Made by a program: the position numbers and the translations under genes. 64,000 nt of DNA, taken from assembly GCF_029633865.1 (NCBI RefSeq), contig NC_079214.1, forward strand, positions 26,765,724-26,829,723. The letters are read 5' to 3'. This DNA is from Lampris incognitus. Lineage: Eukaryota > Chordata > Actinopteri > Lampriformes > Lampridae. Every line of letters starts with the position of its first letter. Positions within the stretch are counted from its first letter, which is position 1. Below, in pieces: positions 17,338 through 18,891 of the stretch. Below the pieces are notes generated by a model that made no database searches, was not told the origin of the DNA, and worked only from the letters and a program-made list of their open reading frames with translations.

Positions 17338-18891
17338 GGACACGAAAATGACATCAAGCTCCTCGCCACTTTTGATGGTAAGGGCGACTGGGATAGTTTC
17401 GTTGGACCATTCGAACGGATGGCGAGAAAGAGGGGCTGGACCGACGAGACCTGTTTGGACGCCTTGTATCTCCGACTGAGGGACAACGCCATGTCTTTTG
17501 TCATCGCGCAGCCGGCTCCGATAAAAGATGACTACCACGCGCTCATCACCCAGTTACGCCGCCGCTACGGTAAAGAGCTGCCTGGGGGAACTGCGCGCCG
17601 TAAACTCAGCGAGGTTAAGCAGGCCAGAGAGATGACCCTCTATGCGTTTGGCGAGGAAGTGAGGGGACTTGTCACACTGGCATACCCGCGGGTTGGTGTT
17701 ACACTGCAGGAGGCCTACGCTGCAGAAGCCTTTCTGCGCGGGCTGAAGAACCAAAACATCGCGTATGAAGTCCTGGGGGCAGAACCCAAAACACTAGCTG
17801 AAGCAATCAGGAAGGTTGAGGCACGCGAGTATGACTTTGGAGCGACGCTGGGGCGAGAGGTTGAAGGAGGGGGGAGAGTCCGGCGAGTAGCATGGGAAGA
17901 CGAGCGGCGTCGCGATAGCTCTCCAAGTCCTCCGCCGGTAGGAGACAGCTTGAGCACCCCCGAGCTCAAGACCCTGGCCAGTGGCATCGACAACATTAAC
18001 AAGGTGAAGTTGCACAGGCACATCAGCCCAGACCACCTACTCCAAGTGTGTTCTCGAGTATGTCCACTGCTGGAGAAAGAGGTTCCTGCCAGCGTGCCTG
18101 GTCTCCACAGCATCCTGGGAGCCGGCAGGCAGAACCTCCTGCGTACCAACAAGAGCTGCAAGCATGTTGTGTGGAAGGGCTCAGCGCTGGCTGCTCTGCA
18201 CTGTGGACGACCCCCAGAGCCTCCTATTATCTATGGGAGTCCACCCAATATCGTGGAGACGAGCAATGGGCGTCGGCTCAATGGCTCCTACCGTCTACGC
18301 CAGCTACTGCCTACAGCTGTCTACCAGCACATGAAGATGCACAAGAGGATTCTGGGACATCTCTCCTCTGTCTACTGTGTCACCTTCGACCGCACCGGGC
18401 GACGCATTTTCACGGGCTCAGATGACTGCCTGGTGAAGATCTGGGGCACAGATGACAGGCGCCATGCTCTGTTGTCTGCTCCAGCACCAGCCATAGGGCC
18501 GCAGGAAACACCTGAAGGAGGTCCTCCCGCTGCTGACATGGAGGAGCCGGGGGCGCAGAGAACAGAGGAGTACGAAGGAGTGACAGAGCAGGAGGAGATC
18601 GATGAAGACCTTGATCTCCGGCTGGAGGACCTGTTCCACGCAAACGACGATGGAGGACCCAGCACACCAGGCTCCCCGGCTCGGTTCCAGCCGCTTCAAC
18701 ACACTGCTGCCAGCTACTCTTCAGGCGAGTCGACAATCACCCAACGTCGTGGGACAGCAGCCTGTGCTCCGGGCGGGCAGTCCAACGCCCCTGACCCAGA
18801 AGGAGACGAAGCCGACGCCGCTGAGTCCCATCTCCCGTACACCACCAGACGGGGCCGGCCAGTCCGGAGGCCCGCCTGGCTCCTAGACTAA
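17338..18891 (+). CDS. Gag capsid / PHIP-BRWD-family fragment / pol-tail fusion
   Basis: The open frame from 17338 has an internal ATG at 17419 giving 490 residues. Residues 1-145 (numbered from 17419) are a Retrotrans_gag-type capsid (RLRDNAMSFV, QLRRRYG, AFLRGLK). No zinc knuckle follows. From about residue 198 to 347 (about 18010-18460) the protein is host-derived: SPDHLLQVC, GAGRQNLLRTNKSCKHVVWK, GRPPE and then a whole WD40 blade from GH (313-314) to IW (341-342). This is the N-terminal region and first WD repeat of the PHIP/BRWD1/BRWD3 family, with PHIP the best fit from memory. The remainder is an acidic linker and a basic TTRRGRPVRRPAWLLD end typical of fish Gypsy pol C-termini. No intron lies inside the captured part. 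Confidence 0.88.
   Translation, partial: GHENDIKLLATFDGKGDWDSFVGPFERMARKRGWTDETCLDALYLRLRDNAMSFVIAQPAPIKDDYHALITQLRRRYGKELPGGTARRKLSEVKQAREMTLYAFGEEVRGLVTLAYPRVGVTLQEAYAAEAFLRGLKNQNIAYEVLGAEPKTLAEAIRKVEAREYDFGATLGREVEGGGRVRRVAWEDERRRDSSPSPPPVGDSLSTPELKTLASGIDNINKVKLHRHISPDHLLQVCSRVCPLLEKEVPASVPGLHSILGAGRQNLLRTNKSCKHVVWKGSALAALHCGRPPEPPIIYGSPPNIVETSNGRRLNGSYRLRQLLPTAVYQHMKMHKRILGHLSSVYCVTFDRTGRRIFTGSDDCLVKIWGTDDRRHALLSAPAPAIGPQETPEGGPPAADMEEPGAQRTEEYEGVTEQEEIDEDLDLRLEDLFHANDDGGPSTPGSPARFQPLQHTAASYSSGESTITQRRGTAACAPGGQSNAPDPEGDEADAAESHLPYTTRRGRPVRRPAWLLD
18010..18460 (+). other. Captured host gene segment (PHIP/BRWD family, intronless)
   Basis: About 150 codons in frame with gag. Ends just after the first WD blade (KIWGTDD), where the next blade of the host protein would begin. 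Normal family members continue with seven further WD repeats and two bromodomains, which are absent. An uninterrupted coding run suggests capture from spliced RNA. Confidence 0.87.

Follow-up and report, generated by a model that had tools for sequence, protein, structure and literature searches.

We analysed a 64,000-nucleotide stretch of the genome of the opah Lampris incognitus, here called the window, in which an element with long terminal repeats (LTRs) occupies positions 15647-19714 and has a length of 4,068 bp. A sequence-only reading had described two identical 604-bp LTRs with a GTAA duplication and, between them, one frame running from a gag capsid through about 150 codons of the PHIP/BRWD family into a pol-like tail, and both descriptions were borne out. 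The 2,860 bases that separate the LTRs contain the N-terminal part of gag, a stop, the capsid part, the PHIP piece and the pol tail. It is very probable that spliced PHIP RNA was captured by a resident autonomous element, giving rise to a non-autonomous Ty3-type family in Lampris incognitus. This conclusion draws on the anatomy of the element, on both junctions as read in the chimera and in its parent, on identity to the host protein, on a spread over 125 places and on a recombinant second backbone. The features of the window's copy are the following:

15643-15646 (left) and 19715-19718 (right), no strand: target site duplication GTAA, directly flanking the LTRs
15647-16250, plus strand: 5' LTR of 604 bp, starting with TG and ending with CA, identical to the 3' LTR at 604 of 604 bases
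16253-16270, plus strand: putative primer-binding site, perhaps tRNA-Leu-like, placed by eye just 3' of the LTR
16444-17334, plus strand: N-terminal part of gag, 297 codons from the ATG, in the same frame as the capsid; 38% to P0038 over 239 columns
17335-17337, plus strand: in-frame stop that cuts gag in the window's copy; gag is uncut in some other genomic copies
17338-18003, plus strand: capsid part of gag, 222 codons; 71% to P0025 and 44% to P0028
18003..18004, plus strand: 5' fusion junction, gag ...AACAAG followed by host GTGAAG..., at the PHIP exon start before V64
18004-18456, plus strand: captured PHIP segment, residues 64-214, intronless; 151/151 to P0041
18456..18457, plus strand: 3' fusion junction, host ...GATGAC followed by pol AGGCGCC..., with no common bases visible
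18457-18891, plus strand: C-terminal tail of pol including the stop, from downstream of the integrase domain; 99.3-99.8% identical to the parents L043 and L044 and 98.9% to L046
18892-19110, plus strand: 3' untranslated part, 99-100% to the parents
19099-19110, plus strand: putative polypurine tract, purine-rich by eye, at the end of the 3' untranslated part
19111-19714, plus strand: 3' LTR of 604 bp, starting with TG and ending with CA

The frame at 17338-18888 is open for 517 codons and covers the capsid, the PHIP piece and the tail (18457-18888). The Pfam match of the capsid part itself is weak (E 0.011); its relative P0028 matches Retrotrans_gag above the cut-off. With 99% of the query aligned at 40%, the pol tail matched the last part of a protein that has an integrase C-terminal domain. 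When the 517-codon frame was scanned for domains, one WD40 match and no bromodomain were obtained and no enzyme domain was reported, in line with the earlier statement that all enzyme domains are missing; the parent carries them. The frame had been given as 17338-18891, and it is indeed open there, but gag does not start at that point, since it begins at 16444 and is cut by the stop at 17335-17337. Because of this stop, ordinary translation of the window's copy, as read, cannot yield the complete fusion. Any fusion protein that is made would consist of gag, the PHIP piece and the pol tail, without the zinc knuckle or enzymes.

Compared with known proteins, the host segment forms an identical run with residues 64-214 of Lampris incognitus PHIP (P0041). 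In the database search this protein agreed at 150 of the 150 residues compared, the runner-up being Myripristis with 146/150, and PHIP of Austrofundulus was 93% identical over 155 residues. Residue 259 of the window frame is an isoleucine that occurs in only one of 120 PHIP proteins among the matches listed, namely that of Lampris. BRWD1 and BRWD3 were rejected as the source; matches so named reached 43-66% over the whole segment, and two partial ones 69-70%. The protein comparisons thus bear out the suspected PHIP/BRWD origin and narrow it to PHIP, which we take as the source of the captured segment.

PHIP/BRWD proteins are defined by an eight-blade WD40 domain together with two bromodomains, a set that the captured piece does not contain. 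The segment had been described as the N-terminal region plus the first WD blade; the first blade is there, but the N-terminal region is incomplete, starting at residue 64 and lacking residues 1-63. A structure model of the 151-residue piece, made from 21 sequences, had a mean pLDDT of only 45.5, and a working WD40 domain is therefore unlikely. With one blade and such a model, the idea of a functioning WD40 part found no support.

Several related proteins are interrupted at particular positions of the captured stretch. P0142 (Lucifuga) has 14 additional residues exactly between L63 and V64 and P0034 (BRWD3, Dissostichus) is without residues 44-63, so that a PHIP exon appears to start at V64, which is also the start of the captured piece. 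P0039, an open frame from the database, is identical to the element from CKHV to PPNI with unrelated residues on both sides, and its next 54 residues lie in another frame and are 50% alike, as would be expected of exons separated by introns. Residues 114-146 are missing from P0030 (BRWD3, hamster), P0118 has an insertion after residue 113, and a gap in P0033 extends to residue 200. From the breaks in P0039, P0030, P0118, P0142 and P0034 we infer that at least three introns inside the captured stretch are gone from the element, which would thus hold four exon pieces. This agrees with the origin from spliced host RNA that had been proposed.

The same genome contains the parent family (L043, L044, L062, L063 and L064), whose members have one frame of about 2,015 codons and lack PHIP. 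Scanned in three pieces, L064 gave aspartyl protease, reverse transcriptase, RNase H and integrase in the Ty3 order. An internally deleted parent form without PHIP was found as well (L046, C1:134374500-134381500, minus strand); its open frame of 1,186 codons joins gag, protease and the start of reverse transcriptase to the end of pol, and a frame of like length lies at C18:8819198. Where they were compared, in LTR, gag, tail and 3' untranslated part, the parents and one chimera (L024) were 98.5-100% alike, as the proposed capture by a gag-bearing LTR element predicts. PHIP takes the place of a parent stretch that starts shortly upstream of the zinc knuckle and ends shortly downstream of the integrase domain. 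Twelve further loci (L031-L042) were rejected as parents, their tails being 76-77% alike over 184 bases with no LTR match; they belong to an autonomous sister family whose frame has about 1,983 codons. With two TG...CA LTRs and a target duplication, a gag capsid recognised through relatives, an enzyme-bearing parent and its own enzymes gone, the window's element classifies as a non-autonomous LTR retrotransposon of the Ty3 type (gypsy).

Both junctions could be read against the parental sequence. At the 5' junction, all four parental gags compared read AACAAG-GTGCTC and the chimera AACAAG-GTGAAG, so the three bases GTG are common to gag and host. At the 3' junction the parents (L043, L044, L046 and L064) have ATTCAGCGG followed by AGGCGCC, whereas the chimera has CAGATGAC followed by AGGCGCC; given that the host continues with glycine, no base is visibly common there.

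That the chimera might be a multicopy family had been a guess, and the genome counts turned it into a result. A 33-mer across the gag-host junction and another across the host-pol junction were each found at 125 genome places (at most 2 mismatches; control 0); the two counts were made separately and need not refer to the same 125 places, at least 100 being listed for each. The parental end junction was found at 84 places, whole and deleted parents counted together, so the chimera junctions outnumber it. When the genome was searched with the 517-residue frame, 83 of 1,043 first-look places were scored. Residues 1-517 were covered in 82 of them and 1-516 in the remaining one, with identities of 97-100%, and 75 were free of stops in this part. 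A stop-free frame of at least 800 codons, corresponding to one gag-PHIP-pol-tail protein, was present in 62 of the 83 scored copies, a number that includes L029 with its unusual upstream part, and a stop-free 821-codon frame in 55. Among the 30 loci fetched first the 821-codon frame occurred in 21, the window's copy (L001) being without it; counted from the first ATG, the frame had 815 codons in 10 complete forward loci. L029 itself (also L048; C27:26418405) is a chimera for which an open frame of 2,865 codons is reported; upstream, the normal N-terminal part of gag is almost wholly missing. A gag-WD40 protein had been suggested as the product of the family; the 62 copies have a frame long enough for one, but the window's copy is stopped and such a protein can only be predicted.

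The DNA of 43 of the 83 scored copies was compared. Their 30-base 3' flanks were of 41 distinct kinds, one of them common to three copies on small contigs. Together with the 125 places for each junction, this argues that the chimera family is mobile and has recently spread, and the recent movement suspected from the LTRs of the window's copy is thereby reinforced. LTR pairs of 42 copies (L029 left out), compared over the parts present, differed at 63 of 16,381 positions, and in 14 of the 42 no difference was seen. The neutral rate is roughly 2.5-5 per billion per year. At this rate the LTR divergence would correspond to a mean copy age of, very roughly, a few hundred thousand years. We also looked for chimeras elsewhere. 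In a collection of 5.77 billion proteins, of which 8,000 candidates were scored, none was present among 38 matches (34 PHIP/BRWD, 4 gag, none with both), and none was found in the viral and prokaryote contigs searched.

The copies fall into two groups, A (the window's kind) and B, which differ by 11 fixed differences in 666 capsid bases and by only one in the 1,107 bases of PHIP, tail and 3' untranslated part (Fisher p 0.00016; 21 group-A and 10 group-B copies). Between the groups the LTRs differ at about 11 of 604 bases and the N-terminal half of gag at about 20 of 457. The backbone of group B equals that of the parents. Since a diverged second gag-LTR backbone carries the same cassette, the cassette and 3' part have been joined by recombination to a different gag-LTR lineage. 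The breakpoint lies near the 5' junction, and the process is the one by which reverse transcriptase recombines RNAs that are packaged together. The marker base at 18055 sorts the 43 copies into 22 of A and 21 of B; one copy (L021), with the B base at this position but a capsid like that of A, is perhaps another recombinant.

The order of events that we favour is a spliced read-through RNA followed by one template switch, because the host side begins at an exon start and the gag side has AAG/GT. A read-through or otherwise chimeric RNA would have been spliced from the donor-like AAG/GTG in gag to the PHIP exon starting at V64 and packaged together with normal element RNA. Reverse transcriptase, coming from the 3' end, would have jumped from the pol tail to PHIP where the two share no homology and, after PHIP, continued into gag and the 5' LTR. 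The product would have retained the LTRs, the primer site and the purine tract, and could have spread on the enzymes, and probably the shell protein, of the autonomous parent; we infer such helper-dependent movement with the parent's enzymes. Later switches between packaged RNAs would have moved the cassette onto the diverged gag-LTR backbone.

It is quite possible, if somewhat short of probable, that both junctions were instead produced by template switching of reverse transcriptase with mature PHIP mRNA and that the start at an exon boundary is a coincidence. The donor AAG/GTGCTC matches the consensus poorly after GTG, the GTG common to gag and host permits an origin by two switches, and the formation of LTR-mediated retrocopies has been explained in print by template switching (PMC5408686). 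However, the host part begins exactly at a PHIP exon start, which a random switch would hit about once per exon length, and AAG followed by GT ends the gag side in all four parents. A PHIP piece taken from DNA, for example from a processed pseudogene recombined into the element, would lack introns equally well, but it gives no start at an exon boundary, and neither poly(A) nor further 3' exons stand at the end of the cassette; this origin we regard as very unlikely. A domesticated gag-PHIP host gene that is not mobile would fit the many copies with an open fusion frame, yet it was rejected as having next to no probability in view of the LTR pair, the target duplication and the 125 places with differing flanks. 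An assembly chimera is just as hard to credit and was also rejected, each junction being present at 125 places on many contigs.

For the capture of spliced PHIP RNA by an LTR element, some points weigh on the other side. Judged by eye, gag offers a weak splice donor, and because of this weakness and the common GTG at the 5' junction splicing is not proved. The intron positions are taken from proteins of other fishes, one of them the paralogue BRWD3, rather than from Lampris DNA. The PHIP gene was placed on C18 near 31.5485-31.5498 Mb by its later exons only, in a genome search with residues 215-392; that search gave no exon for residues 215-271 on C18, and the best matches to these residues were paralogues on C10 and C11 (77-78%). 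The explanation may lie in a split exon or in the first look of the search. A pattern for an uninterrupted exon across the 3' junction gave no genome match at up to 1 mismatch, and the host DNA of the captured PHIP exons was not found in the genome search, the match being one of proteins. No autonomous element with a group-A gag was seen among the loci examined. Finally, expression and mobility of the fusion are predictions from sequence.

We also considered whether selection acts on the PHIP part, the element drawing some benefit from the fusion protein or from the exons it carries; this seems unlikely. Such selection would accord with the 125 chimera junction places against 84 for the parental end junction, although there may be other reasons for the spread of a shorter non-autonomous element. 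In PHIP, the pairwise ratio of nonsynonymous to synonymous differences (pN/pS; L029 left out) was 0.13 between groups A and B, and changes common to at least 3 of the 43 copies were 1 synonymous and 0 nonsynonymous, compared with 2 synonymous and 13 nonsynonymous in the capsid and 1 nonsynonymous in the tail. The figure between the groups, however, is based on one fixed synonymous difference and single-copy changes, and pN/pS was 1.32 within A and 0.16 within B. Single-copy changes in PHIP (7 synonymous, 24 nonsynonymous and 1 stop) were as expected without selection; those in the capsid were 13, 28 and 2, and in the tail 7, 19 and 0, respectively. In the capsid, pN/pS between the groups was 2.12, and the fixed differences were mostly nonsynonymous, at few sites. 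The pattern of single-copy changes therefore gives a picture of copies that probably decay neutrally after insertion, and for PHIP the numbers are too small to give a claim of selection power either way. The open frames can be explained by youth. Most likely the PHIP part is a passenger. It is distinctly unlikely that the cassette benefits the element, whether through a fusion protein acting on the parent's particles or on chromatin targeting, or through silencing restrained by the match to host PHIP; if it did, this would explain both the higher place count of the chimera and the passage of the cassette to a second gag-LTR backbone. In the silencing variant, small RNAs against the element would also hit host PHIP, an essential chromatin gene.

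The gag-oncogene fusions of transducing retroviruses consist of host exons fused to gag, depend on a helper and originate by splicing plus a template switch, and the opah family is like them in these respects; unlike them, it is a germline retrotransposon family in which no env was seen and which carries no transforming gene. Bs1 of maize and LTR-mediated animal retrocopies are described in a review citing Tan et al. 2016 (PMC5408686), and a second review gives the same account (PMC8232201). The retrocopies share with our case the spliced host sequence between LTRs and the template-switch model, and they include vertebrates (PMC5408686). In contrast to the retrocopies as cited in PMC5408686, a single genome here supplies the donor protein, the autonomous parent and the parental context of both junctions, gag, host and pol tail share a continuous frame, and each junction is present at about 125 places. 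Bs1 resembles our element as an LTR element in which pieces of cellular genes replace coding parts of its own and form a hybrid frame (PMC5408686). It differs as a plant element with several captured genes, whereas here one fish gene was captured and the copy number is high. The copy number of Bs1 is low.

Among vertebrates, crocodilian endogenous retroviruses (ERVs) are described as having captured KIT-ligand and nectin3, and they are likewise retroelement lineages that multiplied with captured host mRNA (PMC4299795). Nectin3 replaces env there, with six insertions named, and KIT-ligand came in addition, with no domain lost (PMC4299795); in contrast, our element is Ty3-type, has lost everything from the zinc knuckle to the integrase and has the gene fused with gag. 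None of the titles and abstract openings found in the literature describes capture of PHIP by an LTR element. Capture of host genes by LTR elements is thus known as a kind; to our knowledge, an in-frame gag-host-pol fusion at about 125 places, whose parent and donor protein are both identified, is new. Such captures are usually inferred from old or single-copy remains. Here the donor protein, the parent, the chimera, the junction contexts and a recombinant backbone coexist in a single genome, and their close similarity allows the steps to be read almost directly. The path from capture to a high-copy family becomes testable, as does the choice between splicing and microhomology at the first junction. 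With pieces of it at about 125 places, PHIP, an essential gene, may also be disturbed through RNA silencing or a competing protein, which can now be tested.

The element is inserted between two stretches of transposase-like frame, the left one with a BED zinc finger match, and rejoining the flanks across it restores a continuous transposase-like right-hand frame; the target is presumably a hAT element. Elsewhere in the window, positions 1-7967 hold another Ty3-type element with identical 391-bp LTR copies at 1-391 and 7577-7967, a gag of 515 aa and a pol of 1346 aa with reverse transcriptase, RNase H and integrase matches. A repeat of 420-440 bp occurs three times at 24376-28370, one copy inverted (84-86%). 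A Tc1/Sleeping Beauty-like transposase frame of 305 codons lies on the minus strand at 47211-48128. At 54455-58038, direct repeats of 152 bp (97%) surround minus-strand frames of 457, 337 and 158 codons, which look retroelement-like and gave no Pfam match at E 1e-5.

Outside the window, a second high-copy family with an internal deletion has a frame of 883 codons (L045 and others, e.g. C14:32549145, 32552692 and 32556239). It was suspected of carrying another captured gene; from the frame of L045 it looks like a plain internal-deletion form. The three copies on C14 stand in tandem, at a spacing of 3,547 bases.
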